From Candidatus Aminicenantota bacterium (GTDB taxonomy: Bacteria; Acidobacteriota; Aminicenantia; UBA2199), in contig CP070627.1 in NCBI GenBank assembly GCA_020355945.1, positions 8,694,056 through 8,732,344 of the forward strand: DNA of 38,289 nt. Reading direction: 5' to 3'. The position numbers and the translations under genes were made by a program. Under the pieces are notes generated by a model. It was not told the DNA's origin. It saw only the letters and a program-made list of their open reading frames with translations, and did not search any database. Of the stretch, positions 1 to 26,900 are shown piece after piece (the first letter of the stretch is position 1; every line of letters begins with the position of its first letter).

Positions 1-3000
1 GGGGCCGCATAGGCAGTGGATAAATGTTCCCTGCCCTGGGCCGGGGCGGGTTCATTTTCCCGGGTTTCAATTTCTTCAGCTTCTGCGGCAAAGGTTACCC
101 ACTGGTTAATCCTGGTTTGCAGGTCTCCGGTGGAAACAACAATTTGAGATACATGATTCCTTGAGAATATGTATTCAAAGGTTTTGATTCCCTCCTGGGG
201 AACCATAGAGAATTCAATGGTGTTTTTTTCTCCAGCGGCTGAGATCTCTTCTTGTGTTCTAAAGTCCCAGCCGTCCCAATTAATACTGGTCCAGCAGGAA
301 GGGCCGGACTGGTTATGACGTCGGACAAAGTAATCCATAAAGATGTTTGCCGCTGAATAGGCAGTAAACCCCAATCCCCCCAAAACAGAGGCCAATGATG
401 AGAACAGCAGGCAGAAATCAAGGGATTTATTTTCCAGGATTTTTTCCAGAACCAGGACCCCATCCACTTTGGGATAGAATTGCTCCATGCTTTGGCTTCG
501 ATCTGTATGATTCACCGCTTGAAGTGCTTTTTCTCCGACAATACCGGCTGCGTGAATCACACCGTTTAGGGGGGCGAAGGTTTTTTCTGCCTGGAGGATC
601 ACCTGCTGCATTTGTTTTTGGTCAGCCACATCGGCCTGCATCACCAGTACCTCTGCACCCATTTTTTCAAGTTCCTGTATTGCTTTGATTTTTTGGCTGA
701 TGCTGTGGTTTTTATGGGTGCTTAACCATTGCTGCCATTCCTTCCTGCCCGGGAAAGGGGAACGTCCGGTTAGCACCAGCCTGGCCTTTACAGCGGATGC
801 CAGGTATCTGGCCAATACCATGCCTATCCTTCCAAGTCCACCTGTAACCAGGTAGACTCCTTTATTTCTCAAATAATGACTGGTTTCGCGGTCTTTTTGA
901 GTTTTTTCCCCGGGATCGGGTTCATAAATTTGAATCCAACGGTGACTGCCTCGATAGGCAACAACGGTGTGGGTAGATGGAGTTTGGAACTCCCTGAGAA
1001 GCCGATTTATAAATATTGTATCCTGCCAATTCCCGGTTTTGGGGCTGGTAATATCCAGGCAGCGGCAGCTTATATTACGGTATTCCTGGGGGATCACTTT
1101 AGCCGCACCCAGTACTGCTGCTTTCGCGGGGCATAAATCTTCTTCACCGGTGACTTCCTGCATATTATCCGTAACCACCATGATTTGAATTTCCTGGTTA
1201 ACATTCAATTTTCCTATGGCCTGAGCCTGGTACAGCAAGCTGAAATAACCATGGTCCAGGTCTTTTTTCACCGTTTCTATGGAATGGTCACGGTTACCGG
1301 TACCGGTAACATTCCATAAATGAAGAATGATGTCGGGGATATCCCCTTCACTAAGGAGCCGGGTGAATAAAGAAATGTAATGATCGGCTTGGCCGGGATG
1401 GATAATATACTCAAGATCATTGATCCTGGTGAATTGCGCACCGGCTTTTACCGTGATAACTCTTTGTTTTTTTTGCTGCAATTTTACCTTCAGGCCTGTT
1501 GCGATTCCCTGGTTATCCATAAATACCAACCATTTGCCCTGTGCCGGTGGTTCACTGGCACTGCCATTAAAGAATTGCGGGGGAGACTGTTTCCATAAGG
1601 GGATGTAAAACCAATCCCGGATATTTTGCTTTTTTTTCAACAAGGCTCTCCTGGCTAACAGCCCCGGGATAAGTTGCAGAGAAGCTTCCTCAATCCAGTA
1701 GCGTTGACCCTCAAAAGGGTAGGTGGGCAGTGGCACCCGCTGCCTCTGCCTCTGTTGCTGCCGATAAAATTCACACCAATCAATGCTTTTGCCGTAAAAC
1801 CATAACTCACCTATTTTATTTAACAAGAAATGCCTGTCTGATACCTTTTCCCGGGGATGCCTGATAAAATGGATGGCCTTTTGAGCCGGCTGCTGTTGGT
1901 TATGCTGTTTCACCAGTGAACTCAATACATTTCCAGGGCCTATTTCCAGGAAAAGGCTGTTCTTCTTGTTAAAGAGTATTTCCAGCCCCTGGCTAAATCT
2001 TACGGTTTCTCTCACCTGTCTTGCCCAGTAACCCGGATTGGTGACCTCTTCTGCTGTTATCCAGTTACCTCTTAAGCCTGATATATAAGGAATTTTCGGT
2101 TTATTTAGTGTTACTGTGCCCACTTCTTTTTTAAATTCCGCTAAGATGGGTTCCATCATTGTTGAGTGAAAGGCATGAGAGGTATGAAGTTTGCGGCAGT
2201 CATATCCCTGTTTTTCCATTTGTTTTTCAAAAGATGCCATGGCCTGGTGAGGGCCGGAGACCACACAAAGGCAAGGTCCATTCACAGCAGCCAGTGAGAG
2301 GTTTTGGTTTAATAACGGGATTAATTGTTGTTCCGGGATGGGGACGCTTACCATTGAACCGGGGGGCATTTGCTGCATCAATCGTCCTCTTAGGGCTGCC
2401 AATTTTAGGCCCTCTTGCAGCGAAAAAACCCCGGATAAATGAGCCGCCACAAGTTCTCCGATACTGTGGCCGATCATGGCATAAGGCTCGATTCCCCATT
2501 TCATCAATAATTTTGCCAGCGCATATTCAAAAGCAAAAAGAAGGGGTTGGGCGACTTCGGTCTGGTTGATTCGATTTTTAGCCACAGAGGACACAGAGGA
2601 CACAGAGGACACAGAGGACACGGAGGACACAGAGGACACAGAGAGGGAAGGGTAAAGGATTTCTTTGATGTCAAAATCAAGATGGCTATTTAATATTTCA
2701 AAACAACGGTCCATTTCTTCCTGGAAAACCGGTTCGGTGTTGTACAGGTCCAAACCCATATCCACATATTGAGAACCCTGACCGGGGAACATAAAAATAG
2801 CATCTCTTTCCTTATCACCTGGTTTCCAGTGATATGTACGAAACATGCCCGAAGCAGGGGAGGTTAAGGCAGCGATTGTTTGTTCAATTGTGGAGCATAC
2901 CAGGATCCTGCGGTGGGGGAAGGTTTCTCTTCCTACTTGTAAGGTATAGGCGGTATCGGCCAGGTTAACCCCTTCCTGTTTGAAATATCGGGCTAAATTT

Positions 3001-4415
3001 TCCGTCATTTTTTCCAGGGCGGTCTCGGTTTTGGCAGATAGTAGGATTAATTGGTATTGGCTTGAGGTTTCCGCATTAACCTCTTTATCCGGGGTCTGCG
3101 CCGGAGCCTCTTCCAGGATGACATGGGCGTTGGTTCCCCCGATACCCAATGAGCTGATCCCGGCCCGCAGAGGCTCTCCGTTACCCTGCCATTTTTTAAG
3201 GGTGGTATTTACATAAAAGGGGCTATTTTTAAAATCGATTGCAGGGTTGGGGGTTTCAAAATGCAAACTGGGGGGGATGAGTTTATGCTTAAGGGCCAGG
3301 ACGGTTTTTATAAAAGCAGCCACGCCAGCGGCTGTATCCAGGTGCCCGAAATTGCTTTTCACAGACCCGATGCCGCAGTAATTTCGTTTATCGGTATTAA
3401 ATGCCAGTTTTAAGGCTCCAATTTCCACCGGGTCTCCCAGGTTTGTGCCGGTGCCGTGTGTTTCGATATAGGTAATACTTTCAGGATTCACCCGTGCCAT
3501 ACGCAGTGCCATGCGGATGACTTCGGCTTGCGCCTCCACACTGGGGGCTGAAAACCCGATTTTCCTGTTTCCATCATTATTAATAGCGGTTCCCCGGATA
3601 ATGGCATAAATATGATCCCTGTCCTGGAGAGCGGGTTTGAGCCGTTTGAGTAGTACCACCCCTGCGCCCTCCCCCCCAATGGTGCCGCTGGCATTACCGG
3701 AAAACACCCGGCAGTGACCATCCTGCGAGAATATCATACCTTCCTGGTATAAATAACCTTGCCTGGGGGCAGTAAATATCGAGATTCCTCCGGCTAAAAC
3801 CATTTCACTTTCACCGGTTAATAATGCCCGGCAAGCCTGGTGTATCGCTACCAGGGATGTGGAACAAGCCGTCTGCACAAAGGAAGTACCCCCTTTAAGA
3901 TTAAGGTTATAAGACACCCGGGAACATAAGAAATCTATATGAATGAATTGAGCTGCTGCAAATTCTCCATATTCATTACTTTTCCCGCTTAAATGCGCTC
4001 GGGCTTCCCAATGAAACCCGGATGAAGCACCGGCATAGAGACCAATCCTGTCTTTATAAGTCCCGGGATTATAGCCAGCATCTTCCAATGCTTCCCAGGC
4101 ACATTCATGAAAGATGCGAATTTGCGGATTCATTAATTCCGCTTCCTGGGGAGAATAGCCGAAAAATGAGGCATCAAAGAGTTCCTTATCCGGTAGATAA
4201 CCGTAGGCACTTATATAATCAGGGTCTTTAAGGGTCTGCTCATCTATTCTTGCTTTCGCCAATTCTTCATCCGAAAAAAAAGAAATGGATTCGACGCTGT
4301 TTTTTAGATTCTCCCAGTATTCATGGATGTTTTTAGCCCCGGGGAATCTTCCACTCATACCAATAACAGCGATTTCCAATCCCGTTCTTATATTAGCATT
4401 TTCCTTTGGGATCAT
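1..4415 (-). CDS. Polyketide synthase, 3'-truncated by window edge: KS-AT(malonyl)-KR-(ACP)
   Basis: The first 1471 residues of a type I PKS whose frame stays open to the left edge. KS (10-430) has TACSTS with Cys184, HGTGT with His320 and NFGH with His358. AT (540-860) has GHSIGE with Ser651 and HAFH at 747-750, indicating malonyl-CoA. KR (about 960-1440) has TGGLGRIG near 1191, Ser1340, Tyr1353 and Asn1357. The last visible residues, LSTAYA, are the usual lead-in to an ACP, which must continue outside. No DH or ER is seen. It is closely similar to the KS-AT-KR part of the 34840-28607 protein, suggesting duplication. ATG at 4415 is preceded by AAGAAGAGG about 13 bases upstream, a rather long spacing. 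The 102-base gap upstream shows no clear promoter or terminator. A run of SSV repeats lies at 592-611 in the AT. It could accept the peptide from the last NRPS, which lacks a thioesterase. Confidence 0.93.
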   Translation of the reverse strand, partial: MIPKENANIRTGLEIAVIGMSGRFPGAKNIHEYWENLKNSVESISFFSDEELAKARIDEQTLKDPDYISAYGYLPDKELFDASFFGYSPQEAELMNPQIRIFHECAWEALEDAGYNPGTYKDRIGLYAGASSGFHWEARAHLSGKSNEYGEFAAAQFIHIDFLCSRVSYNLNLKGGTSFVQTACSTSLVAIHQACRALLTGESEMVLAGGISIFTAPRQGYLYQEGMIFSQDGHCRVFSGNASGTIGGEGAGVVLLKRLKPALQDRDHIYAIIRGTAINNDGNRKIGFSAPSVEAQAEVIRMALRMARVNPESITYIETHGTGTNLGDPVEIGALKLAFNTDKRNYCGIGSVKSNFGHLDTAAGVAAFIKTVLALKHKLIPPSLHFETPNPAIDFKNSPFYVNTTLKKWQGNGEPLRAGISSLGIGGTNAHVILEEAPAQTPDKEVNAETSSQYQLILLSAKTETALEKMTENLARYFKQEGVNLADTAYTLQVGRETFPHRRILVCSTIEQTIAALTSPASGMFRTYHWKPGDKERDAIFMFPGQGSQYVDMGLDLYNTEPVFQEEMDRCFEILNSHLDFDIKEILYPSLSVSSVSSVSSVSSVSSVSSVAKNRINQTEVAQPLLFAFEYALAKLLMKWGIEPYAMIGHSIGELVAAHLSGVFSLQEGLKLAALRGRLMQQMPPGSMVSVPIPEQQLIPLLNQNLSLAAVNGPCLCVVSGPHQAMASFEKQMEKQGYDCRKLHTSHAFHSTMMEPILAEFKKEVGTVTLNKPKIPYISGLRGNWITAEEVTNPGYWARQVRETVRFSQGLEILFNKKNSLFLEIGPGNVLSSLVKQHNQQQPAQKAIHFIRHPREKVSDRHFLLNKIGELWFYGKSIDWCEFYRQQQRQRQRVPLPTYPFEGQRYWIEEASLQLIPGLLARRALLKKKQNIRDWFYIPLWKQSPPQFFNGSASEPPAQGKWLVFMDNQGIATGLKVKLQQKKQRVITVKAGAQFTRINDLEYIIHPGQADHYISLFTRLLSEGDIPDIILHLWNVTGTGNRDHSIETVKKDLDHGYFSLLYQAQAIGKLNVNQEIQIMVVTDNMQEVTGEEDLCPAKAAVLGAAKVIPQEYRNISCRCLDITSPKTGNWQDTIFINRLLREFQTPSTHTVVAYRGSHRWIQIYEPDPGEKTQKDRETSHYLRNKGVYLVTGGLGRIGMVLARYLASAVKARLVLTGRSPFPGRKEWQQWLSTHKNHSISQKIKAIQELEKMGAEVLVMQADVADQKQMQQVILQAEKTFAPLNGVIHAAGIVGEKALQAVNHTDRSQSMEQFYPKVDGVLVLEKILENKSLDFCLLFSSLASVLGGLGFTAYSAANIFMDYFVRRHNQSGPSCWTSINWDGWDFRTQEEISAAGEKNTIEFSMVPQEGIKTFEYIFSRNHVSQIVVSTGDLQTRINQWVTFAAEAEEIETRENEPAPAQGREHLSTAYAA
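2583..2645. repeat. In-frame 9-bp tandem repeat inside PKS AT domain
   Basis: About seven copies of a 9-base unit (GACACAGAG on the plus strand, one copy with CGGAG) lie inside the AT coding region of the left-edge PKS. They are read as Ser-Ser-Val repeats at residues 592-611. The unit length is a multiple of three, so copy number can change without breaking the frame. The repeat sits in the surface loop just before the INQTEVAQP motif, where the second complete AT also carries a repeat. Confidence 0.9.
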
Positions 4416-14400: not shown

Positions 14401-15481
14401 TTTGCAAAGGATAGCCCGGGTCTATGGGTAAATACGCCCCTCCCGCTTTCAATATGCCTAATATCCCGATAACAGCTTCCGGGGAGGGTTGAAGAATAAA
14501 TCCCACAATGGTTTCTTTCTTAACTCCCCTGGTTTTCAACAGTTTTGCCAACCGGTTTGCTTTGGTGTTCAATTCCCGGTAACTCACTTCCCCACCGCTG
14601 TCATCCAGGATAAGAGCTGCTGCCCCGGGATTTTTGCCAGCCTGGTCTGCAAATAGTTCATGAACTGCCTTTTGGTCCGAGTAATCATGGGCTGTATTGT
14701 TGAATTCAATGATTAATTCTTGCTTTTCTTCGGGGGAAAGTATGTCAATGGAAGATAGCTGTATATCGATATCAAAAATAACCATCTCCAATAACCGTTT
14801 AAAATGCTCTAAAATTCTTCCTATTGTGTCTTTTTTATATAAAGATGCTTTGTATTCCAGTTCCATACAAATCGATCCTGCGGTCCTATTAAAAGAAAAT
14901 AGGATGGCAGGTTGAATATGCCGGAGATATTTCCTGTCCTGGAGATTCTCCAGTAAGACCGCTACTTCAAATAAACCGCACCTATTTTCACCGTCATTTA
15001 CCATCAATTGGTCAAACAGTTCTTCCACGGGGTAATTTTGATTTTCCACAGCTCCGGCAACCGTGTCTCTTACCTGTAATAAGAATTGTTTAAAGGTCAT
15101 ATGATCCCGGGTTTGATTTCTTAAGGGCAGTATGGTATTAACATATTCTGCTTCCGCCTCCTGTTTATCGATGGTTGTTCCTACGATGATATCATTGGCC
15201 CCGGTATAGAGGTGGATCAAAATATCGGTTACCGCCACTATTATCATATGCAACCTGGGGTCGGATTCATTTCGCAACTGCATCAATCGTGAAAATATTT
15301 TCTTGTCGAAGGTATGGTCTAGCTTGCCGGTATGAAGGTTGTCGGTGCCATCCCCTTCATAATCATAGGGAAAACCGCTTATAACAAATTCCCCGGATAA
15401 TTTATCCAACCAATATTCTTTTTCTTTAAAGAATTGTTCGCCAACATGCAAATTTTCCTTAGAAGCATTTATTTCTTTCAT
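11483..15481 (-). CDS. NRPS, half C-A(Asn)-PCP-E
   Basis: A 1332-residue synthetase. Like the other Asn NRPS it opens with an orphan C-domain C-lobe (1-255, starting near KEYWLDKLSGEF) and has no HHxxxDG N-lobe. The A domain (265-760) has YTSGTTGNPKG and pocket residues Asp466, Leu467, Thr470, Lys507, Ile530, Gly532, Glu557, Val565, Gly566 and Lys754, again the Asn code. PCP Ser is 811 (GGDSIK). E (860-1310) retains EGHGRE and NYLGQ motifs, but its catalytic motif is HHLLVDT at 989-995 rather than HHxxxDG. The tail (SDFTSS...ELELVFDIL) resembles a donor COM docking segment rather than the DFGF tail. Start chosen at ATG 15481 because an AGGAAAG ribosome site precedes it and it follows the upstream stop by 10 bases; an in-frame ATG at 15544 would overlap the radical SAM gene. 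Confidence 0.94.
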   Translation of the reverse strand: MKEINASKENLHVGEQFFKEKEYWLDKLSGEFVISGFPYDYEGDGTDNLHTGKLDHTFDKKIFSRLMQLRNESDPRLHMIIVAVTDILIHLYTGANDIIVGTTIDKQEAEAEYVNTILPLRNQTRDHMTFKQFLLQVRDTVAGAVENQNYPVEELFDQLMVNDGENRCGLFEVAVLLENLQDRKYLRHIQPAILFSFNRTAGSICMELEYKASLYKKDTIGRILEHFKRLLEMVIFDIDIQLSSIDILSPEEKQELIIEFNNTAHDYSDQKAVHELFADQAGKNPGAAALILDDSGGEVSYRELNTKANRLAKLLKTRGVKKETIVGFILQPSPEAVIGILGILKAGGAYLPIDPGYPLQRIRYMLEDSKAMAILAVKAYAEKVISPHPLILLDDENIPGEDGANPEMRCDLASAAYLIYTSGTTGNPKGVLIQHGSLVNYIRWAARTYVQNEKANFPLYTSIAFDLTVTSIFTPLITGNSIVVYQGEDREFLVEKIFNGNNAAVVKLTPVHLMLMSNRKEQEPTIRRFIVGGERLETPLAQKITANFNGNIEIYNEYGPTEATVGCMIYRFKPRADDTPSVPIGIPADNMEIYLLDMDMRNVPPGCMGELYISGHGLARGYLNKPGLTVEQFIPNPFKPGKRMFKTGDRARRLADGNIEFLGRVDQQVKIRGYRIETSEVEYYLSKFEGIRQSLVLVKEDEKGYNSLAAYIVPSGPNIEVGELRHHLSLYLPEFMIPSYFVQLDKLPITPNGKVDRKSLAAIDQSSMDMGENYCPPTCKSEKIMVDVWQEVMGIERIGTADNYFNMGGDSIKAIQISSRLLNYELKLDISDLFQYPTIKELTPHMKPLKQEINQEVVEGEVKLTPIQKWFFQKKISEMHHFNLPVMVYRPGGFNKDILEKVFQKLAEHHDALRMVYLIEDEEIKQVNRGIQSPLYELIDMEITGESYEKIIEEKCNQIQASMDLSRGPLLKLGLFKTIKGDYLLIAIHHLLVDTVSLSILFEDFTSLYQQMENGVKAEDCQLPLKTSSYKEWAEKLYEYANSETMLKELKYWQNLEKMELSPLSKNKDNQAGKSKNNGIKTFELSEQYTEKLLKRVNKAYNTEINDILLAGLSLALSDWTGLERIPVVLEGHGREDIIPDVNITRTVGWFTSVSPVILGGMRNKEDISSVIKNTKDMLRDIPNKGIGYGILKYLTNEENKQSIEFRLNPEVSFNYLGQTDEDLSNPLFQVADISSGNSISPLNTQWFYSLYITGMVRNKRLRTIVKYCPGDFEDNDIQSFVTGYEKYLRQIIDHCASREDTEFTRSDFTSSIEEQELELVFDILGGNTTKD

Positions 15482-15491
15482 TTTCTTTCCT

Positions 15492-17189
15492 TTAAAAACC
15501 GAAATCGCCATTGTCTTCTCGCACATTCCTGGCAAAGGTTTCACTTTTTATGTTCTGGTTTTCATCGATATATTTATTCCTGGCCATGAAATCCAACAAT
15601 GGCGGCACTGCATTTTTATGTAATCGGTGCCACCGTTCATCGGCATTCACGTGCTGATCATAGGAATAGGGGTTGGGGATTCCCAATTTTTTGCAGTGGG
15701 CTTCGAACCGGCGCACTCTCCTGAAGGTTTCCTCTCGTGAGGGTTCCATTTGCGGCCCCGGTGTATAGTACCGGAAGACTAACATATCCAATGCCTGTTT
15801 GGGGTACAACAATTCGATACCTTTCCGCCAGTCATCCGCACTGGTCTGCTTCGAATAGTGAACGAGAAAGTAATTGCATTCGGATTGAAAAATATCATCC
15901 TTTAATTCTTCCACCAGGTCCAGGGTCTGTTGAAAATCCTCTTCGGTTTCCCCCGGGTGCCCAATCACCCAGTAGGCAGTGGTTTTGATGCCGGCATAGG
16001 CCAGGGCCGATAGGGTGGTTTTAATTTGTTCAACGGTTATTTGTTTATCCATTTCATCCAGTATGCGCTGCGACCCGCTTTCCGTGCCTAAGCGAACCCG
16101 GTATAATCCACCTCGCCGCCAGAGTAAGGTGTTGCGGATATCCCCGGAAGGATCATCTACTTTGAAATAGGCATCATAATACAATGAAATTCTTGCTTTA
16201 ATGATTTCGTTGGCCAGGTCAGTGACCACAGGATTCAATAAGGAATCGGTCATGAAAAATAACTGGTGGCCGTATTGTTTGTGCATCTTTATCATCTCAT
16301 CCGCGGTTTGTGCCGGATTTTTTACCCGGTATTTGCCGGCAACTTTCCGGGCGACACAAAAACTGCAACCATATTTACAACTGGCCGATGCAGTAGCTGC
16401 CAGGTAAGGATATTTTGCCATGTCCAGGTCGGAAAAATCCGGTAAATCTTGCTCATGAAAGTCTAAAATACGTCCGCCCACATCCTCCTTCGTATACACA
16501 CGCTTTGAATCCGGCAGGTCCCCTCGTAAATATTTTAAAAAGGGCAATTCCCCCTGTCCCAAAATGATTTTATCCAGGTAACCCGCTGAGGTGTCCAACA
16601 GGACCTGGAAATTGGGAGAATCCGGGGCATGGGTCTCATTAAAGGTTCCACCCCCCATCAAGGTTTTAATGTGAGGGTATTTCTCTTTTGTCAGTTTAAG
16701 CACATACATGGAGGCGGCAATGGTACATTTATAAGCTGTCACTCCCACCACATCCGGCTGTTCCTCTTCCAATAACTCCAACCAATAGGCGTGCAGCATG
16801 GTATAAAATTCTTCCATGATCCGGTTCAGCTCCCGGGCATAGCAGTCCTCCACCTCGACATAATATGACTTATAAATCAATGTTTTGACCAATTCTTCAT
16901 ATTCGTCTTTATGGTTGTGATTCCAATGTGCCATTAAATGGCTTTGCAGCACATCGTGGCCGATATTGTTAAAATTTCCGCGTTTTTCTTCAGGAACGCA
17001 TTTCTTCAGGGTTTCAAAATAGTTATTGTAAAAATCCAGGCATTCCTTTTTTACAATTAAATCAACGGTTCTTACTTTATAGCCGTGCTCCTGGAGAAAC
17101 GCTTTAAGCGTGGTGATTCCCATTGGTGGGATCATGGGGTCCCAATAAGGTAAAATCGCCAGCAAAATTTTTTTCATGGTTGTTTCCAT
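15492..17189 (-). CDS. B12-binding-type radical SAM protein with DFGF tail
   Basis: A 565-residue protein. Residues 5-225 look like a cobalamin-binding Rossmann domain of the BchE type (PPMGITTLKAFL near 21-32, PDVVGVTAY at 145-153, MGGG at 178-181). The radical SAM core has CKYGCSFC with Cys271, Cys275 and Cys278, LGTESGS near 367-373 and VIGHPGET near 408-415. Known members of this class methylate unactivated carbons or catalyse rearrangements; the actual reaction cannot be read here. The C-terminus is DFGF, as in its neighbours. It sits between two Asn-activating NRPSs, 26 bases after one and 10 bases before the next, so it probably acts on a carrier-bound peptide. ATG at 17189 is favoured over ATG at 17177 because AAGGAG lies five bases upstream of the former. 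Confidence 0.91.
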   Translation of the reverse strand: METTMKKILLAILPYWDPMIPPMGITTLKAFLQEHGYKVRTVDLIVKKECLDFYNNYFETLKKCVPEEKRGNFNNIGHDVLQSHLMAHWNHNHKDEYEELVKTLIYKSYYVEVEDCYARELNRIMEEFYTMLHAYWLELLEEEQPDVVGVTAYKCTIAASMYVLKLTKEKYPHIKTLMGGGTFNETHAPDSPNFQVLLDTSAGYLDKIILGQGELPFLKYLRGDLPDSKRVYTKEDVGGRILDFHEQDLPDFSDLDMAKYPYLAATASASCKYGCSFCVARKVAGKYRVKNPAQTADEMIKMHKQYGHQLFFMTDSLLNPVVTDLANEIIKARISLYYDAYFKVDDPSGDIRNTLLWRRGGLYRVRLGTESGSQRILDEMDKQITVEQIKTTLSALAYAGIKTTAYWVIGHPGETEEDFQQTLDLVEELKDDIFQSECNYFLVHYSKQTSADDWRKGIELLYPKQALDMLVFRYYTPGPQMEPSREETFRRVRRFEAHCKKLGIPNPYSYDQHVNADERWHRLHKNAVPPLLDFMARNKYIDENQNIKSETFARNVREDNGDFGF

Positions 17190-17215
17190 TCTTGCTCCTT
17201 TTGTTACCTGTGATT

Positions 17216-20200
17216 TTAAAAACCGAAATCTGCCGTATAGTTGTCCTGGTCAGAAAATTTCAGCTTTGCTTTTTCATCGCTAATCCCTATGTCTTCGAGG
17301 CGGATATCTCCATCATTGAGGATTGTATCTACCAACTCTTCAATATGTAAAGCGATTTTTTTTACAAAATTCCTATCATATACCAGGGACTTAAACCTGA
17401 ATTCAATTCCTAAAGAATCCCCCGGGGAGATTACCACATGAAAATTATAATCCGGCTGTGTATATTCAGTAACCTTTAGAACATCAAAGGCCTTATTTGG
17501 GGTTCTCTCTACAATCCCTTCCACCTGTTCTGCCAGTGGGTAATTTTCAAAAACCAGGATATGATCCAATAAATTTCGTTCCAATATACTGCCCGCCTGG
17601 ATTCGCGCCAATGGATAATAATGATAAGGCTCACTCCGGATTGCTTTTTCCTGGACCTGGTGTATTAATTGTTGAAATGTCATTCCCCTTTTAAGGGATA
17701 CTCGTACCGGGATTGTATTGATAAATAGACCCACCATGGACTCCACTCCCGTAATTTCAGAAGGGCGGCCGGATACCACCGCACCAAATACCACATCTTC
17801 TTCCCGGTTGTATTGACTCAAGAGAATTCCCCAAATCGCCTGGATGATTGTATTCACTGTAACCTGGCTCCTTGCAGCCAATAAATGAAGACCTGATGTT
17901 TTATCTTCACTAAAGTGGAAAGACTCTCTTTCAAATTGATAGCCCTTTTGATCTCTTTTAACACCTTTCTGTTTGGGGAGGCTGGTTTCTTTGGCATAAC
18001 CTTCCAGGTATTTTTTCCAGTATGCTTCCGCTTCCTTTTTATCTTGTTGCATTAGCCAGCGGATGTATTCCCGATAAGGTGTACGGGGGGGTAATTTGTA
18101 TGGTTTATTTTGCCCCAGGTGATTATATATCACTAAAAACTCTTCGAATAGTATGCCAACACACCATCCATCCATCAATATATGATGAAAACTCCAGGTC
18201 ACTTCATAGTCCCTGTCACCGGTTTGCAGGACCGCCGTGCGCATGAGCACATCTTTTTTAAAGTCAAATGAGCGCATCCTGTCTCGTTCCGCAAATTCAT
18301 CGATTACCGACTGTTTATTTTCATTGGTAATTTTTTCACGGAGGTCCTGGTATAAAAATTCTACCTGGCGTTCCTTTAAAATGATTTGAATCGGAACCCT
18401 TACCCCTTCATACACAAAGGTCGTTCTCAATATATCATAACGCATAAACAGTTCATTGATACTTCTTTCAAAAAGAGAGAGGTCCAGGTTCCCGGAAATA
18501 GAAATTCTTATTTGCACCGAACCTCCCGGGGATAACTGGTTATAGAATGTGTAGAACAGCTTTCCTTCCTGCATCGGACTTAATATGTAGATGTCTTCGA
18601 TGGGATATTGCTGAGCCAGTTGTTCAACCTTCTGGATGGACATTCCGGGATATGTTAAATCACTGGGAGTTAACTGCCTCTCTTTCCTGGACACGCAGTA
18701 AGAAATCGTATCGCACAGCCCTTTTTTATAATTATCCAGGAATGTTTGCATGGTCTCAGGCTTATAATGTCTTTTATTATAAATTACTGTTACCACCAAT
18801 CGTCCAGCGGTGATTATCCCCGAAATTTCAATTTCAGATATCCTTTCCCCCTCCGGACTCATGGTATTTCCATATGCCTCTTTGGCAATTGTAAAAGAGG
18901 TTTGTCGGATATCCGCATCAAATTGTCCTAAATAATTAAAGTTGATCTGAGGATTCAATTTAAATTCGATATTCTTCCTGTATTCTCTTTTTGTTAAATA
19001 TTTCAGGATTCCGTAACCGATTCCTTCGTTAGGGGCTCTGCGTAAACTTTCTTTTGTTTCTTTAATCTGGCGGGCCAGGTCATCCCCGGAAGCAATATCC
19101 AATACGATGGGGTAAATGGATGTAAACCAACCGATGGTGCGGCTGATGTCTACCTGGTCTAAAATTTCCTCCCTGCCGTGACCCTCCAGGGCCACCAACA
19201 GCCGATTATTCCCGAAAGTTTTATTTACACTTAAGCCCAATGCCGTCAATAAGATATCATTGACCTCCGTGCCAAATGCATGATTTACTTTAGTTAACAG
19301 GAGACGGGATTCCTTTTCGGATAAATTAAAGGATAGGCTTACTTCATCTTTCTTATGGTTACCTTTTGCGGGAAAATCTTTTTCCAGCGGAGGTATTACC
19401 ATTGATTCCAATTCCTTCCAATAGGCCTTTTCCTCTAAGAATTTCGGACTATTGGCATAGTGGTGCAGCTTTTCCGACCAGGACTTGAAGGAATCGGATT
19501 TGAGGGGAAGGGCTAAGGGCTGCTTTTTTTTGAATTGTTGAAATAAAGTTTCCATATCTTCAAAAAGTATACGCCATGATACACCGTCAATCACCAGGTG
19601 ATGAACGACAATTAATAACCGGTCCCCGTCTTCCAGGTGAAATAACCCCAGTTTCATTAAGGGACCGGTTTTTAGATCAATACCGGCCTGGATGCGGTTG
19701 GCCGTGGATTCTAAGGCGGTAATCGCATCTTCGCTGTGCCGGTAATCAAATACCTGGAGGGAAAAAGGGTAATCCAATCCCTGGTTTTCCTGGATCATTT
19801 CCCCGTCCTGCGTGTTGGTGTTGTATGTCATGCGAAGCACATCGTGATGCTCTTGTAGTTTTAAAAATACGGCTTTTACAGCCTCTTCTTCAATTCCTTC
19901 TTGCGAATAAAACATCACGGCCTGGTTAAAATGATGATTGTCCGGGAATTGGCTTTTAAAAAACCAGTGCTGTATCGGGGTTAAGGGAACGAACCCGGAA
20001 ATCACCGATTGATCAGGAATGATCTCTGTTCTTTTTAGTAAAGGCGCTAATCTTGCTATAGTGGGTTCCTGGAAGAGATCTCGCATCTCGATTTTATATC
20101 CTGCTTTTTTTACCCTGGAAACAATTTGAATGGTTTTAATTGAATCGCCTCCAATGGTAAAAAAATTATCATTTATACCTATATTATCTATTCTCAATAC

Positions 20201-22612
20201 ATTTTCCCAGATTCCTGTTAACATTCTTTCTACTTCATCCCTGGGGGAAGCATATTTACTTTCTGTTATTGGTTGGGGAGCCGGCATTGCCTTCCTGTCT
20301 ACTTTACCATTGTGGGTTAAGGGAATATTTTCTATTTGCATAATATAAGTGGGGATCATATAAGCCGGTAAATATTTCGATAAATATTCTTTCAATTTAT
20401 TTACTTCAGGTTTTTCATTTGAAACAATATATACACAAAGGTATTTATCCCCATTGTCATCATCTTTTACCACTGCGATTGCCTCTTTTATTTCATCCTT
20501 CTTTAGTAATAGACGTTCGATCTCTCCCGGCTCGAACCGATAGCCCCTTATCTTCAACTGAGCGTCGATCCGACCTGAAAACTCCATTTTACCCGCTTCA
20601 ACCCATCTACCCATATCACCGGTCCTATACATTCTTTCTCCCGGGACAAAAGGATTTTTTACAAATTTTTCAGCAGTCAATTCCGGTCTATTCAAATATC
20701 CCCTGGCAACACCATGTCCTGATATATATATCTCCCCTGTTACTGTCAGAGGTGCAGGCATTCGATTGCTGTCCAATATATAGACCTGGGTATTATACAC
20801 AGGAGTTCCTATGGGAACAGATTTTCCCTGATCAGTTGCGGGATTGAATTTATAGATCATACTACCCACCACCGTTTCAGTTGGACCATATTCATTATAC
20901 ATCTCTATTTGTCCGTTAAAACTCTCATGAATTGTTTTTGTCAATCCACTATTTAGTTCTTCCCCGCCCACGATAAAGCGCTTGATACTACGTTTGTAAC
21001 TCCCACCTGGACCCGCACCGGGGTGGGCAACTTCCCTCTCCCTTAATAGCTTTAAATGAGAGGGGGTTATTTTGACGACTCCGACGCTGTCATCGTCAAT
21101 TATATTCCCGATTAAGAGCTCTTTGTATTCTCCTGAATATACAACAATGGAACTGCCGGTTAACAGGGGAATAAATATCGAAGTTACGGTCAGATCAAAT
21201 GAAATGGATGTGTACAGGGGAAAATCCAATTTTTCATCCTTCACATATGTTTTTATTGCCCAATTGATATAATTCACAACACCCCTGTGGTGAACCATTA
21301 CCCCTTTGGGCCGGCCGGAAGTCCCGGAGGTGAACATCACATAAGCAATATTCATCGGTTTACCGGTGCTTTTCGGGTTATCAGCGCTTCCCACATAAAT
21401 ATCTTCATCATCGAGGAAAATGATATCCCGGGAAGAGTAGTGCCCCCCACTGGCCCTGTCGCCGGAGATACCAGGGATAAAGTTTTTACTTGTGAGCAGT
21501 ATAGATGCCCCGCTCTCTTCTAACATAAACCTGGTTCGATTCACCGGGGTCTCCGGGTCTATAGGTAAATACCCGGCGCCGGCTTTTAATATACCCATTA
21601 TTCCTATCACCAACTCCACTGAACCCCCGGCCATTATGGCGGCGATCTCCTCCGTGCTTATCCCTCTTGATCGCAGCAGACCAGCCAATTGATTGGATTT
21701 TCTATTTAACTCTCCATAAGTAATGGAGCCGCTGCTGTATGACTCCCGGACAGCAATATTTCCCGGTGTTTTTTCCACCTGCTCTTCAAATAATTCATGA
21801 AGGGTTTTATCCGCCGGATATTTGATTTTTGTGTTGTTTACCTCATACAATAGGTGTCTTTTATCCTCTGGTGTTAATATATTTATCCTGTCGATTGGCA
21901 GGTTCACATTAACCAGCACCTCATTCAATAGATTTTTTAAATGAATAATCACTCGTTCTATTGCTTTTATTTCATAAAGGGAGGCGTTGTACTCCACGAT
22001 TCCTTCCACATATCCTTCTTGGCCGGAAAAGGAAAAAAGCATATTAGGATTGATGTTGCGGAGGTAACGTTTATCATGGATATTTTCAACGATAATCGCA
22101 ACATCGAATAGCGGAAAATGATCATTTTTGGAAAAAGGTATTTCTAATTTTTGCAGCAGCCGTTCCAGGGGATAATTTTGATTTTCAACTACTTCGGTTA
22201 TCCCTGCTCTCACCTGGAGCAGCAATTCTTTAAAGGTCATATTATTATTTAACCGATTTCTCAATATAAGAACCGTGTTGATGAATTCGGCGTCTATTTC
22301 TTGCTTATAAATCGACGTACCTACAATGATATCTTGATTACCAGTGTATTTATTTAGTAATGACACCAACGCTGCTGTCAAAATAAAATGTAACCTGATG
22401 TCAGAGTTATTGCTTAATTTCATTAACTGCAAATATAGTTTTCCTGCTAATTGAAATTTCAATATTTCTCTTTGATGCTGGTTTACATTGCCTGGTGGGT
22501 TGTCATTGGTATAGGGAAAACTGGTTTTTACCAGTTCCCCTGCTAAATTGTTTAACCAGTAATCTTCCTCATTGCTTTTTATCAACTCGTTAAAATAATC
22601 CGAATTTGCCAC
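17216..22612 (-). CDS. NRPS, half C-A(Asn)-PCP-E-C with DFGF tail
   Basis: A 1798-residue synthetase. It begins at the boundary motif EDYWLNNLAGEL, so residues 1-255 correspond only to the C-terminal lobe of a condensation domain; the N-lobe with HHxxxDG is absent. A domain: about 265-765. Pocket residues Asp473, Leu474, Thr477, Lys514, Ile547, Gly549, Glu574, Val582, Gly583 and Lys770 match the known Asn code DLTKIGEVGK. PCP Ser is 824 (GGDSIK, a form typical before E domains). E (about 870-1310) has HHLVIDG at 1004-1010, so D-Asn is predicted. The final C domain (1337-1780) has LSPMQEG and HHILMDG at 1476-1482, as in C domains that accept a D-configured donor. The protein ends in DFGF. The start is GTG (22610-22612) with GGAGG seven bases upstream, 35 bases after the methylthiotransferase-like gene. 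Confidence 0.95.
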   Translation of the reverse strand: MANSDYFNELIKSNEEDYWLNNLAGELVKTSFPYTNDNPPGNVNQHQREILKFQLAGKLYLQLMKLSNNSDIRLHFILTAALVSLLNKYTGNQDIIVGTSIYKQEIDAEFINTVLILRNRLNNNMTFKELLLQVRAGITEVVENQNYPLERLLQKLEIPFSKNDHFPLFDVAIIVENIHDKRYLRNINPNMLFSFSGQEGYVEGIVEYNASLYEIKAIERVIIHLKNLLNEVLVNVNLPIDRINILTPEDKRHLLYEVNNTKIKYPADKTLHELFEEQVEKTPGNIAVRESYSSGSITYGELNRKSNQLAGLLRSRGISTEEIAAIMAGGSVELVIGIMGILKAGAGYLPIDPETPVNRTRFMLEESGASILLTSKNFIPGISGDRASGGHYSSRDIIFLDDEDIYVGSADNPKSTGKPMNIAYVMFTSGTSGRPKGVMVHHRGVVNYINWAIKTYVKDEKLDFPLYTSISFDLTVTSIFIPLLTGSSIVVYSGEYKELLIGNIIDDDSVGVVKITPSHLKLLREREVAHPGAGPGGSYKRSIKRFIVGGEELNSGLTKTIHESFNGQIEMYNEYGPTETVVGSMIYKFNPATDQGKSVPIGTPVYNTQVYILDSNRMPAPLTVTGEIYISGHGVARGYLNRPELTAEKFVKNPFVPGERMYRTGDMGRWVEAGKMEFSGRIDAQLKIRGYRFEPGEIERLLLKKDEIKEAIAVVKDDDNGDKYLCVYIVSNEKPEVNKLKEYLSKYLPAYMIPTYIMQIENIPLTHNGKVDRKAMPAPQPITESKYASPRDEVERMLTGIWENVLRIDNIGINDNFFTIGGDSIKTIQIVSRVKKAGYKIEMRDLFQEPTIARLAPLLKRTEIIPDQSVISGFVPLTPIQHWFFKSQFPDNHHFNQAVMFYSQEGIEEEAVKAVFLKLQEHHDVLRMTYNTNTQDGEMIQENQGLDYPFSLQVFDYRHSEDAITALESTANRIQAGIDLKTGPLMKLGLFHLEDGDRLLIVVHHLVIDGVSWRILFEDMETLFQQFKKKQPLALPLKSDSFKSWSEKLHHYANSPKFLEEKAYWKELESMVIPPLEKDFPAKGNHKKDEVSLSFNLSEKESRLLLTKVNHAFGTEVNDILLTALGLSVNKTFGNNRLLVALEGHGREEILDQVDISRTIGWFTSIYPIVLDIASGDDLARQIKETKESLRRAPNEGIGYGILKYLTKREYRKNIEFKLNPQINFNYLGQFDADIRQTSFTIAKEAYGNTMSPEGERISEIEISGIITAGRLVVTVIYNKRHYKPETMQTFLDNYKKGLCDTISYCVSRKERQLTPSDLTYPGMSIQKVEQLAQQYPIEDIYILSPMQEGKLFYTFYNQLSPGGSVQIRISISGNLDLSLFERSINELFMRYDILRTTFVYEGVRVPIQIILKERQVEFLYQDLREKITNENKQSVIDEFAERDRMRSFDFKKDVLMRTAVLQTGDRDYEVTWSFHHILMDGWCVGILFEEFLVIYNHLGQNKPYKLPPRTPYREYIRWLMQQDKKEAEAYWKKYLEGYAKETSLPKQKGVKRDQKGYQFERESFHFSEDKTSGLHLLAARSQVTVNTIIQAIWGILLSQYNREEDVVFGAVVSGRPSEITGVESMVGLFINTIPVRVSLKRGMTFQQLIHQVQEKAIRSEPYHYYPLARIQAGSILERNLLDHILVFENYPLAEQVEGIVERTPNKAFDVLKVTEYTQPDYNFHVVISPGDSLGIEFRFKSLVYDRNFVKKIALHIEELVDTILNDGDIRLEDIGISDEKAKLKFSDQDNYTADFGF

Positions 22613-22647
22613 CCTTGTGCCTCCGTGTCAATTTTTTTTTAAAATCC

Positions 22648-23946
22648 TTAGAACCCAAAATCTTTTTCATCTTTCGCCAGGATATCTGTTTTGGCCCATG
22701 CCAGGTCCTGGGAATCCTCTATTTCTTTTACTTTTTCTCTGAATGTGTCACTGCAAAATAAATAATCATTTAGGGTTGCCAATCTGAAGGTAGCCTCGTC
22801 AATGGTTTCCGGTTCCTTGTTTTGATAGGAAATGGAGCGAGGGCCCAGGATTTTATCCATTTCCTCCCACCGCAGCGCTGCCTCAGCAGCGGGAACTTTG
22901 TCTGCAAATTGGCAAGAAGGAGCCCCTTTTACATCGCTGTAACTAAAATGGCATATTTTATCAAAACATTTGTCTTGTTTAAAGAAATCTGCCAATTCCC
23001 GGAATATTTCCCGGGTTTCCCCGGGGAACCCCACCATGATATCTGCGGTTAGATAAAAGCCAGGGTTTTCCTTTTTTATGGTTTTTATCAGATCGTATAA
23101 CCGGGAAAAGTCAACGTGGCGTCCCATTCGGGTGAGAATCATTTCATTGACATGCTGAAGCCCGATATGCAGTTCCCGGATAACTCCTCTTTTGCATAGA
23201 GATAATATGCTCCGGGAATATTTAATCAGCCAGCGGTTATGCAGGTAGCCAAAATACAATTCCACCTTTGGTTCAATTGCCAATAGATGCTCCACCAATT
23301 GGATTATTGTGGTGTTAATGTCAAACCCGTAGGCAAACGTATCCTCTCCCATTAAAAATATCTTATTATGCCCTCCTTGAATGGCAGATTTAAACTCACT
23401 TACAATTTTCTCCAGGGGGACGCTTTTCAACTCTCCTTTTGCTTTGTTTATTACGCAGTAGGTACATCCCCGCAGGCAGCCTTCTGCTATTTTTATATAA
23501 AAATAATCGTATTCCTTTTTTATATGCCGGCATTTCTTATGGGTTTTAAATAAGGAAATCGGCTTGATCCTGGTAAAGGGAATTTTTGCATTGATAAGAT
23601 CATCCAGCAGCTCTTCATGATGAAGATAGATGATTTGCCCCTGGAATTCTTTTAATAAATCCTCTTCGTGGGTTTTGGGCAAACACCCCATAACCACGAT
23701 ATTTTTTTCGAGGAAATGCATTTTTTTTAATTTATCGCGGGTTTTTAATAGCTTTTCATACATGGTATCATGAAAACCACAGGCACAAAAAATAACTAAG
23801 TTAACATCGAAATCCTCAGCTATTTCCCAACCATTTGCTTTGAAATAATATTCAAGAGTGGAAAAATACTGCATATTTCGTTCACAATGTAAATTGTTTG
23901 TTACGATGGCCACTCTCTTTTTGGTTATCAGTGAATTTTGTTTCAT
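22648..23946 (-). CDS. Radical SAM methylthiotransferase-like protein (MiaB/RimO family), DFGF tail, no TRAM domain
   Basis: A 432-residue protein. The N-terminal region resembles the methylthiotransferase (UPF0004) domain, with candidate auxiliary cluster cysteines Cys21 (NLHCERN), Cys56 (FCACGF) and Cys88 (VMGCLP). The radical SAM motif CLRGCTYC supplies Cys157, Cys161 and Cys164, and MVGFPGET is conserved further on. Established members attach a methylthio group to tRNA (MiaB, MtaB) or to the beta-carbon of an Asp in ribosomal protein S12 (RimO). I see no C-terminal TRAM domain, which those members use to bind substrate. Instead a charged tail ends in DFGF, as in the neighbouring NRPSs. 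Position between Thr and Asn modules suggests thiomethylation of a carrier-bound residue, perhaps Asn; that is inference. The chosen ATG at 23946 has AGGAGG six bases upstream. An open frame extends to 24096 but lacks family homology and overlaps the upstream NRPS. Confidence 0.9.
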   Translation of the reverse strand: MKQNSLITKKRVAIVTNNLHCERNMQYFSTLEYYFKANGWEIAEDFDVNLVIFCACGFHDTMYEKLLKTRDKLKKMHFLEKNIVVMGCLPKTHEEDLLKEFQGQIIYLHHEELLDDLINAKIPFTRIKPISLFKTHKKCRHIKKEYDYFYIKIAEGCLRGCTYCVINKAKGELKSVPLEKIVSEFKSAIQGGHNKIFLMGEDTFAYGFDINTTIIQLVEHLLAIEPKVELYFGYLHNRWLIKYSRSILSLCKRGVIRELHIGLQHVNEMILTRMGRHVDFSRLYDLIKTIKKENPGFYLTADIMVGFPGETREIFRELADFFKQDKCFDKICHFSYSDVKGAPSCQFADKVPAAEAALRWEEMDKILGPRSISYQNKEPETIDEATFRLATLNDYLFCSDTFREKVKEIEDSQDLAWAKTDILAKDEKDFGF

Positions 23947-23998
23947 TAAGATCCTCCTGTTGTAATTGAAACTATTTATCGTTTGTATTTTTATATTC

Positions 23999-26900
23999 TT
24001 AAAATCCGAAATCGCCCTGGTCCTCTTGAAGAGGGTTGGATGCTGCCGCTGATACCCCTGGAAGGATTTTGATCTGTTCCAGCCTGGTATTCTCATTGTC
24101 CAATACCTGGTTTAAAATGTAGAGGTAATTTTTTGCCATTTTCTCCACTGCTGCCCGGGTAAACAACGAGGTTGCGTATTGGATATTTATACTGATGGCG
24201 TTTTGCATTTCGAACGCTTCAAAATATAAATCAAATTTCGCTAAACTATGGTTGTAGGGATATGGAGAAACCTGCAGTTGAGTCAATTCCACCGGTTGGA
24301 AGGGAATATTTTGTAATTGGAATACCACATCCACTAAAGGATATCGATTGGACTCCCTCTTAATGCCAAGTTTACTGACCAATTCGTCAAAGGGATAATC
24401 TTGATTGTCAAGGGCATCAATGGTATTTTTTTTAACTTCCTCTAAAAATTCGAGGAATAATTTTTCTCCTTTGACACGATTTCTCATGGCGTGCATATTA
24501 ATGAAAAAACCGACAATATTCTCCAGTTCCGTATGACTCCTGCCTGTGGTCACCGAACCGATAATGATGTCCTCCTGGCCGGTATATTTGTACAGTGAAA
24601 GGTTGCACACGGCCAGCAAAATCATGTATAAGGTAGTGCCGGTTTTTTTCATTAATCGTTCCAGTTTTCCCATTAAATTTCCTTCTATCACCACATTTAC
24701 CTCATCCCCTTCATAATTCCTTACTTTTGGCCGGGTGTAGCTTAAAGGAATATTTAAGACCGGGATGTCTCCTGTAAATCGATTCAACCAATATTGCTCC
24801 TGTTTTTTGAATTCCGCCGACTCAATCCATATGTTATGCCAATTCGAATAATCCTTATATTGGATGCGAAGCAGTGGTAATTCCTTTCCTGCAAATAATG
24901 CAGCAAACTCTTTTACAAATATTTGCGCAGAGACCCCGTCTGAAATGATATGATGCATATCTGCCATCAACAGGTATTTTTTGTTTTCCAGGGGCATTAA
25001 GCCAACTCTCAACAGCGGTGCCCGGGAAAGATCAAAGGGACGGACAAAATTCTTTATAGTGCTTGCACAGCGCACAGCGCCTGGCGCCTGGCGTTCCTCT
25101 TTACGCTGTGCGCTGTGCGCTTTGCGCTCTGCGCAATCGTATTCTATTGCAAATTCCACATTGTCATGGATCCTTTGCACTGGTTCTTCTTCCACCATGA
25201 CAAAGGATGTCCTGAAACTCTCATGTTTTTGGAGCAATTTTCGCAATGCCGCTTCCAACCGGGCTGCATCCCATTCCCCTTCCAGGGTGAAGGCTCCAAA
25301 AATGTTGTAAGCGGTACTGACTTCCTCCACCTGGTCCAGGATATATAATCTTTTCTGGGCTGAGGATAGGCTGTAGTAGTCCTTTTTTTCCACAGGTTCA
25401 ATGGCTATATATTGATCTTCTTCGGCTTTTTTTATGTATTGCGATAATCCTTTGATGGTGGGGGTTCTGAAAAGCTCCACCAGGGGAATGTTGACATTTA
25501 AGGTTTTGTGTATACCGGACAACATGGTAACAGCTTTTAAAGAATGGCCTCCTAACTCAAAAAAATTAGCCTCAGTGCTTATTTTCTCTTTTTCCAAGCC
25601 CAGCACATCAGACCATATCTCCACCAGCTTTTTTTCCAATTTAGTTTGGGGAGCGATATACCCTTTCCCTATCGATATTTCAGGGGCTGGCAGCGCTTTC
25701 CTGTCTACTTTCCCGTTAGGGGTTAAGGGGATTGCATCCATTTTTATAGAAAATGAAGGTAACATATAATCCGGCAAACCTTCGGACAAATAGCTTCTCA
25801 ATTGGGATACGGTCAATTCTTCTTGCGAAACAATATAGGCACATATATATTTATCGCTGTTTGGGTTTGTTCTTACCATGACAACAGCTTCTTTTATATC
25901 AATATGATTCAACAGTTGACTCTCTATTTCTCCCAATTCGATGCGGTGGCCTCTTATTTTGACCTGGTGATCGATACGTCCCAGGTATTCCATTTCACCG
26001 GTTTGCTGCAGCTTTACCAGGTCACCTGAACAATAAAGCCGCTCTACTTTTTTATACGGGTTTCTTGTAAACTTTTGGTGGGTTAACCCGGGTCTATTTA
26101 AATATCCCCTGCATACCCCTTCTCCTCCGACACATAATTCCCCGGGTATGCCCAGGGGTAACAGCTTCAGCCCCCTTTCCATTACATACGCGGTTAAGGT
26201 GGGTATGGGCTTTCCTATATTGCTTTGATTCGATTTTATCTCCTGGTCAGTGATCTCTTTGTAGGTCACATGAACGGTGGTTTCTGTGATGCCATACATA
26301 TTAATCAATTGGGTTCCCGGGTATTTTTCTTTCCATTCTTTTAGTTTAGCCGGTTTTAAGGCTTCGCCTCCAAAAATGACGTACCGCAGGTTTAGTTCTC
26401 CTCCCGGTTTTTTTAATTCTTCATCTATTAAAGCATAAAAGGCTGTGGGGGTCTGGTTTAATACAGTTACTTTCTCCTTTGTTAAAACCTGCAAAAACCC
26501 GGTGGGGTCCATTGCCATCATTTTGGGGATAATGATTAATTTACCACCGTAGAGTAGGGAACCATACATCTCCCAAACGGAAAAATCAAATCCATAGGAG
26601 TGAAACATGGTCCATACATCATGGCTGTCAAAATCAAAGGGATTATTATCATTGAACAACAAGCGGACAACATTACGATGCTCGATCACCGCACCTTTGG
26701 GCTCGCCGGTGGTTCCCGAGGTATATATTACATAGGCGGCATCAGCAGGGACATTCAGTGATGATAAATCACCGGCGGCTGAGGGGTAACCCTTTTCATT
26801 TATTAAATCGATGGCTTCTCCTTTGAACCGGATTTCCTTTACTAATTCTTTTTGAGTAAGCAGCAGCGAGGTATGGCTGTCATCCAGCATGTAGGTTACT

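Follow-up and report, generated by a model that had tools for sequence, protein, structure and literature searches.

A putative C-terminal DFxF docking tail on peptide synthetases and tailoring enzymes preceding half-condensation domains

A 38,289-nucleotide stretch of the genome of Candidatus Aminicenantota bacterium (assembly GCA_020355945.1, contig CP070627.1, forward-strand positions 8,694,056 to 8,732,344; hereafter the window, meaning the whole stretch) encodes a hybrid polyketide synthase (PKS)/nonribosomal peptide synthetase (NRPS) line, in which four consecutive proteins of different families end in Asp-Phe-Gly-Phe (DFGF). Comparative analysis of these tails suggests that DFGF is a form of a C-terminal docking motif, whose receptor is a lone C-lobe of a condensation (C) domain fused to the adenylation (A) domain at the start of the following NRPS. 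This lone C-lobe is here named hC (for "hemi-C"). Through this motif, a tailoring enzyme or a C domain acting in trans would be plugged into the hC-A platform of a module that is split between C and A. We put the probability of this reading at roughly 85%. Evidence for it includes the placement of the tail before hC proteins, the likeness of the tails that precede one hC, and the covariation of the tail with hC position 68. Other domains are abbreviated as T (thiolation, carrier), E (epimerization), KS (ketosynthase), AT (acyltransferase) and KR (ketoreductase).

DFGF tails and hC domains of the window

The proteins of the line (P0001-P0008) are all encoded on the minus strand, in the order P0006, P0005, P0001, P0002, P0003, P0004, P0007 and P0008. 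The features of the tagged part are as follows:

P0001, 23999..28585, minus strand: NRPS C-A-T-C, ending in EDQGDFGF
P0002, 22648..23946, minus strand: MiaB/RimO-like radical S-adenosylmethionine (SAM) protein (UPF0004 and Radical_SAM; scores below the NCBIfam cut-offs), ending in KDEKDFGF
P0003, 17216..22612, minus strand: NRPS hC-A-T-E-C, ending in NYTADFGF
P0004, 15492..17189, minus strand: B12-binding radical SAM protein, ending in EDNGDFGF
P0007, 11483..15481, minus strand: NRPS hC-A-T-E without a DFxF tail
DFGF tail of P0001, 24002..24013, minus strand: GAT TTC GGA TTT, then TAA
DFGF tail of P0002, 22651..22662, minus strand: GAT TTT GGG TTC
DFGF tail of P0003, 17219..17230, minus strand: GAT TTC GGT TTT
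DFGF tail of P0004, 15495..15506, minus strand: GAT TTC GGT TTT
C-terminal complete C domain of P0001 (HHIISD), 24056..25384, minus strand: proposed trans partner of the P0003 hC-A
C-terminal complete C domain of P0003 (HHILMD), 17267..18598, minus strand: proposed trans partner of the P0007 hC-A
hC of P0003, 21827..22612, minus strand: C-lobe only, lacking HHxxxDG, with a fold predicted from models of homologues; proposed receptor of the P0001 and P0002 tails
hC of P0007, 14675..15481, minus strand: 44% identical to the P0003 hC; proposed receptor of the P0003 and P0004 tails
hC residue 68 (Asn) of P0003, 22409..22411, minus strand: position covarying with tail residue x
Asn of P0007 aligned with hC position 68, 15269..15271, minus strand

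A check of the reading frames confirmed that DFGF immediately precedes the stop codon of the four consecutive open reading frames (ORFs) P0001, P0002, P0003 and P0004, and that the preceding residues are EDQG, KDEK, NYTA and EDNG, respectively, as described in the initial annotation. The flanking P0005, P0006, P0007 and P0008 lack the tail, as also claimed. The reported codon differences were upheld in part: the Gly and Phe codons vary, but the P0003 and P0004 copies are identical over 12 bases and Asp is always encoded by GAT. Both tagged NRPSs share one arrangement, namely a complete C domain at the end, followed by one tagged radical SAM gene and then by an hC NRPS. The variable residue x of the tail is Gly in all four copies, and both hC domains of the window have Asn at position 68. 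Gene starts agree with the database proteins for P0002 (432 aa, start at 23946 despite an ATG at 24096); the database version of P0004 (561 aa) is shorter by four residues, and that of P0007 starts with MKEIN at 15481, not at 15544, from where the ORF is open.

The hC domains of P0003 and P0007 (~270 aa) align only with the second half (C-lobe) of C domains; neither contains an HH pair, and the HHxxxDG motif is missing. TubC_N (PF18563, the beta-hairpin docking domain, betaHD) was not listed for P0003 or P0007 at E 0.001. The hC was the first domain in 235/235 hC genes called by profile (overlapping loci counted more than once), its start lay at residue 14 in the median and 46 at most (n=228 with a start), and it was conserved over 36 aligned copies; for its constant position and conservation the view of the hC as a "broken C domain" was rejected. 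In the AlphaFold model of a homologous protein (locus L008), most of the hC has a predicted local distance difference test score (pLDDT), given by block, above 85, much of it 93-98, and the hC matches C-lobes in the PDB, with the X-domain/OxyB complex (PDB 4tx3) among the 50 matches listed. The hC-A model of locus L017 superposes on EntF, the best of 50 listed structures, over ~800 columns (TM 0.87 by query length, 3.2 A); other listed C-A structures fit less well, e.g. SrfA-C (0.72, 9.1 A). An EntF-like C-A platform is therefore predicted to be kept despite the lost N-lobe, with the contact between hC and A resembling that of an ordinary C-A pair.

Placement of the tail and covariation with the hC

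Loci for comparison were collected in several ways: (i) a scan of genome contigs with the P0004 family gave 36 loci, (ii) a search of four of the genomes behind them with an hC profile gave 20 loci, and (iii) 140 further stretches were added, giving 196 loci beside the window, some of them overlapping. The hC profile matched 7 of 142 same-class genomes at E 1e-55; in six genomes behind the loci (one among the seven), 6/6 were matched at the laxer E 1e-45, a threshold loose enough to let in ordinary C domains too. When 398 genomes of the phylum of G145 (Ruminiclostridium) and 395 of the phylum of G146, each set being a sample of a larger group, were searched at E 1e-58, the respective starting genome was the sole match in each; hC is thus rare in these phyla. 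Genes were called as the longest ORF, and domains were scored with profiles built from the window domains. Duplicate ends were removed before counting, and radical SAM genes were skipped when naming the next protein. The counts comprise genes with at most 120 residues past the last domain; set apart are 29 C-ending proteins whose next gene is unannotated or at the edge of the stretch (17 strict, 6 relaxed and 6 without tail).

The enrichment proposed in the initial annotation for proteins beside half-C NRPSs was strongly positive. A strict F.F-COOH end occurred in 89/117 C-ending megasynthase proteins preceding an hC protein, two of them from the window, vs 0/45 proteins ending in T, E, A, AT, KR or KS (Fisher 5e-21), a difference well outside what chance would give. 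By the relaxed form the counts were 112/117 and 2/45, and the five misses were L055, L069, L135, L160 and L175; in L055 and L069 DFGF or KFGF is present, followed by an extension. Among the proteins ending in E (n=4), none was strict and one relaxed, while the unannotated ORFs gave 4/163 strict and 26/163 relaxed ends. Of the radical SAM genes directly before an hC (n=49), 32 encoded a strict and 12 a relaxed tail, and 5 lacked it. Judged from these sequences, the general tail is acidic-[DE]-F-x-F-COOH, with DFGF among its forms. The signature initially put forward was accordingly modified: the tail is shared, but as DFxF, not DFGF, and the hallmark is the C/A split within one module.

The tails were also counted within the families of the tagged radical SAM proteins. 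For P0004, 120 homologues were listed and 85 with an intact end kept (35 were fragments or lacked an anchor match); F.F was found in 68/85 and the relaxed form in 84/85. Among the 68 F.F tails, 72% have D/E at -4, and D, N, G and E are the usual residues at x. When 39 selected members were aligned, the first Phe of the tail (position 563) proved at least 90% conserved, a level reached by no other column beyond 534. Of 120 proteins of the P0002 family, 58 end in F.F and 38 lack the tail even by the relaxed form, the latter being mostly more distant and shorter proteins.

The tail was found on unrelated enzyme families: B12-radical SAM, MiaB-like radical SAM, WbuX-like PP-loop and U32-like proteins. 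Two WbuX-like PP-loop proteins, both scoring below the NCBIfam cut-off, lie at cuts between C and hC (L105 5741-6946, DFSF; L123 3871-5001, DFAF); as a guess, they might perform amide, thioamide or amidine chemistry on carrier-bound substrates. A U32-like protein of L026, narrowly above the Pfam cut-off, ends in DFKF and is encoded two genes ahead of its hC. Three more radical SAM proteins with weak B12-binding matches (L066, L088 and L188) carry F.F tails. A further F.F end in the set of unannotated genes, on an ABC transporter of L015, looks like chance.

Covariation was analyzed between the tails themselves and between tail and hC. In 30 cases (loci L001-L136 and the window) the genes for a C-ending protein, a radical SAM protein and an hC protein follow one another in this order, and the similarity of the first two proteins' tails, scored with BLOSUM62 over the last four motif residues, was 464 vs 363 +/- 19 in permutations, with 0/20,000 as high. 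Shuffling within genomes gave 382 +/- 17 (0/20,000), and exclusion of the window and L019 gave 422 vs 328 +/- 18 (0/20,000). Rare forms also pair up, i.e. tails containing W (Fisher 0.014) and tails with a last residue other than Phe (Fisher 0.003). As the C-ending and radical SAM proteins are not homologous, a common receptor would be the simple cause of this likeness.

Association between five features of the tail and the columns of the hC alignment was examined in 135 hC domains that follow a C-ending or radical SAM protein, by genome-stratified permutation (1000) with a maximum statistic. An acidic x was associated with hC column 68 (z 11.5; family-wise p 0.001, the lowest attainable with 1000 permutations). 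Lys/Arg occupied position 68 in 23/42 cases facing a C-protein tail with acidic x vs 9/70 otherwise (p 3e-6), and in 7/15 vs 2/34 for radical SAM tails (p 0.002); the two sets share some hC domains. Sister contrasts were concordant in 10, discordant in 2 and tied in 9 cases (n=21, p 0.04), and phylogenetic independent contrasts gave r 0.42 (p 9e-7; sign-flip p 1e-4), exceeding 296 other column tests, of which the best reached 0.32. After extension to 272 columns of the first part of A (1214 tests in all), hC 68 remained first (0.41), positions 67 and 71 of the same loop ranked among the twelve highest, and no A column exceeded 0.38. The covariation tests point to the hC as the likely receptor, in line with the half-C link drawn in the initial annotation. 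Its proposal of a C-terminal short linear docking tag, bringing synthases and tailoring enzymes to a common receptor, is supported at the sequence level by the enrichment and the covariation together.

Proposed docking model and competing explanations

In the proposed mechanism, a module would be cut between C and A, with A keeping the C-lobe on which it normally rests, while the entire catalytic C domain, being the last domain of the protein encoded before, would be tethered by its tail and work in trans. The two Phe side chains and the acidic residues of the tail would seat on the hC, with the variable residue x against the hC loop of positions 67-71 (residue 68). Tagged tailoring enzymes would use the same seat in alternation with the C domain, and the group bound to this module's T domain could be modified by them before condensation or around that time. 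Applied to the window, the model pairs the tails of P0001 and P0002 with the hC of P0003, and those of P0003 and P0004 with the hC of P0007.

Radical SAM domains also occur within hC proteins. In the search with the P0007 hC, 20/95 proteins list such a domain too (P0256, P0257, P0262, P0265, P0270 and others), and where mapped it lies inside A, which hints at a substrate held on that same module. ThiF-like domains are listed in four of the 95 hits (P0314, P0318, P0322 and P0329). In the comparison of trans and A-inserted radical SAM enzymes, a B12-radical SAM domain in A was found in 0/29 vs 4/20 cases (p 0.02) and any insert in 3/29 vs 9/20 (p 0.008), which is only suggestive of mutual exclusion. 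Two loci run counter to it: in L021 (identical in place to L120) and in L047, an hC-A with an inserted radical SAM domain follows a tagged radical SAM protein; both are outside these counts, no T domain having been found in their stretch.

A broader reading would make the hC a socket of general use in NRPS modules, into which DFxF plugs fit according to a partial charge code (x vs 68). Trans C domains and tailoring enzymes of unrelated folds would alternate on it, the amino acid being modified on the carrier before C docks and condenses, and a lineage could exchange one tailoring reaction for another by placing a small gene at the C|hC cut, instead of having enzymes built into A. We see about even odds for this extension.

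Several results weigh against docking of the tail to the hC. In the AlphaFold models of L008 (tail and hC) and L017 (radical SAM tail and hC-A) the hC is well folded and the tail is left unplaced and disordered (pLDDT <50); in these models it is tied to the hC N-terminus by stop read-through and has no free carboxylate, so that its lack of placement says little either way. The charge rule is partial, since 19/42 acidic C-protein tails face a non-basic position 68 and 9/21 sister contrasts tie. No hC column was associated below family-wise 0.05 (n=135) with W tails, a non-Phe last residue, x = Gly or E at -4, the lowest value being 0.058 for x = Gly with column 263. The first-look hC signals F127 and L132 were given up after their values came to 0.37 and 0.34 with more data. 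The relaxed tail pattern is permissive, as seen in the unannotated ORFs, so only the strict counts carry weight. C-ending proteins before A, C, KS or AT starts have strict tails in 3/14 cases (5/14 relaxed), and four T-ending proteins before an hC, with a fifth before a radical SAM gene and an hC, all lack the tail. Unannotated ORFs directly before an hC (n=23; some possibly not genes) gave 1 strict, 4 relaxed and 18 tail-less ends. The tail-less radical SAM proteins directly before an hC are those of L019 and L172 (both G145), L184 and L190 (both G147) and L025, and the radical SAM protein of L016 (G147) likewise lacks it. By eye, the tail is missing from radical SAM proteins before an hC in 2/2 cases in G145 and 2/4 in G147, a clostridial metagenome-assembled genome (one of the latter two was scored relaxed by the script). 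The C tails before an hC are strict in 3/3 cases in G145 and in 4/5 in G147, the fifth being DFNI. The initial annotation had tied its proposal to enrichment of the tail and its retention in orthologues; both were found in Aminicenantes-like genomes, but several clostridial radical SAM proteins at that place lack the tail.

The tail could also be a docking motif for another part of the downstream protein (A or T) or for a free adaptor, the hC merely marking the protein. The unplaced tails of the AlphaFold models would fit this, as would the A-domain column whose correlation with acidic x (r 0.38, within the 272 columns from the start of A) is near the 0.41 of hC 68. We nevertheless consider it unlikely, because hC 68 ranks first of all 1214 tests, A columns included, with its neighbours 67 and 71 among the first twelve, the sense of the charges is right and the C-protein and radical SAM tails agree. 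Moreover, when C-ending proteins precede an A start without hC, 7/8 do not end in F.F, five of them having DDLENE or MDLEG instead.

NRPS clusters recombine often, the C-ending proteins have common ancestry and the tail codons of P0003 and P0004 are identical; gene-end fragments copied through recombination during module shuffling might thus have made the tails alike by descent, with no binding function. This appears very improbable, given that the codons of other copies differ, the first tail Phe stands out in conservation in the P0004 family, the tail occurs on unrelated families and depends on the next gene, and the covariation of x with a residue in another protein survives phylogenetic correction. 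C-terminal aromatic residues also serve as sorting signals, e.g. in the beta-signal of outer-membrane proteins, and the tail might accordingly direct localization, encapsulation, degradation or outer-membrane targeting (by its C-terminal Phe) of the whole assembly line. We give this equally little weight, since proteins of the same lines ending in other domains never carry the strict tail (0/45) and the tail covaries with the hC; NRPS and radical SAM proteins, to which the four carriers of the window belong, are generally taken as cytoplasmic.

Should docking of the tail to the hC be correct, it would add a further route, beside betaHD docking and X-domains, by which enzymes are brought to NRPS-bound substrates. 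It would operate inside one module, where C meets A, through a tag some four residues long whose specificity can be read from one position. It would also explain how radical SAM enzymes come to be stationed at selected modules in Aminicenantes-like bacteria. The tail would then be a genome-mining marker linking stand-alone enzymes to modules, as well as a small plug and socket for engineers, and C-lobe-only fragments, otherwise annotated as truncated or broken, would gain a use.

Related docking systems and further observations

Interface domains are C-family domains that position the stand-alone beta-hydroxylases of siderophore synthesis. Pairs of short linear motifs (SLiMs) and betaHDs are described for rhabdopeptide Kj12, tubulysin and enacyloxin: a disordered C-terminal motif of <15 residues binds the N-terminal domain of the next protein through salt bridges and a hydrophobic face, with some promiscuity; SLiMs occur on oxidases too, and the usual site is the junction of a peptidyl carrier protein (PCP) with a C or cyclization domain (PCP/C or PCP/Cy), others being listed as well (PMC9113145). 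The DFxF tail is likewise a short C-terminal linear motif on the upstream protein (89/117), but its proposed receptor is a condensation C-lobe, not a betaHD, and it stands after a C domain and before an hC-A, at a C|A cut, with F-x-F at the extreme end.

The X-domain of glycopeptide synthetases, a condensation-family domain without an intact HHxxxDG, recruits P450 (Oxy) enzymes to the carrier-bound substrate; several enzymes use one interface, and its two subdomains, located in the last module, bind surface helices of the P450 (PMC6565677). The hC shares the family and the lack of an intact motif. It is, however, a single lobe opening a protein, whereas X is a complete two-lobe fold in the last module; its neighbours are radical SAM, PP-loop and U32-like proteins, not P450s, and its proposed ligands are C-terminal tails, including that of a C domain. 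Communication-mediating (COM) domains, partly embedded in the C domain and co-occurring with E domains, mediate contacts between NRPS subunits (PMC12402864), a role also proposed for the DFxF tail and hC. Unlike COM, which acts at the E/C junction, the DFxF tail is found on C-ending proteins (E-ending, 0/4 strict).

Docking of a C-terminal linear motif to an N-terminal domain, and recruitment by a catalytically dead C-type domain, are known (PMC9113145, PMC6565677); the DFxF tail and hC resemble both systems yet belong to neither family. No mention of a DFxF tail or a half-C receptor was found among the titles and abstract openings listed in searches of an open-access library, with subscription papers mostly outside this scope. 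Within that scope, the new element is that C domains and tailoring enzymes share a DFxF tail whose proposed receptor is a C-lobe, at a cut between C and A.

The ends DDLENE or MDLEG, found on C-ending NRPSs before an NRPS that opens directly with A (no hC), appear to be a second kind of tail, used at a different C|A cut. Five T-ending NRPSs share an acidic tail, e.g. EEEEIIL or EFEEIVL; an hC protein follows two of them, and proteins with C or A starts follow the others. These proteins are encoded at:

L006 2892-6779, 11716-15651 and 15648-18824: NRPSs ending in DDLENE or MDLEG
L030 11720-20476: NRPS ending in DDLENE or MDLEG
L126 1-3123: NRPS ending in DDLENE or MDLEG
L067 1960-4143, L092 4820-10525, L139 3347-8434, L165 1-612 and L168 3-1022: T-ending NRPSs with the acidic tail

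The remaining proteins of the window line are:

P0006, 34837-38193, minus strand: KS end, AT, KR and T, open at the window edge
P0005, 28607-34840, minus strand: KS-AT-KR-T-C
P0008, minus strand: C-A-T

The last domain of P0005, a protein lacking the tail, is a complete C domain, and so is the first domain of P0001, resulting in two consecutive C domains. The motif expected in AT domains is GHSxG; the AT domain of P0006 has GHGIG, is matched by profiles only in pieces and may be inactive. An extra minus-strand PKS ORF (KS-AT-KR; 3-4415) runs off the left edge of the window, and genes for an FtsX/MacB-type permease and an FGE-sulfatase-like protein lie between it and the line.

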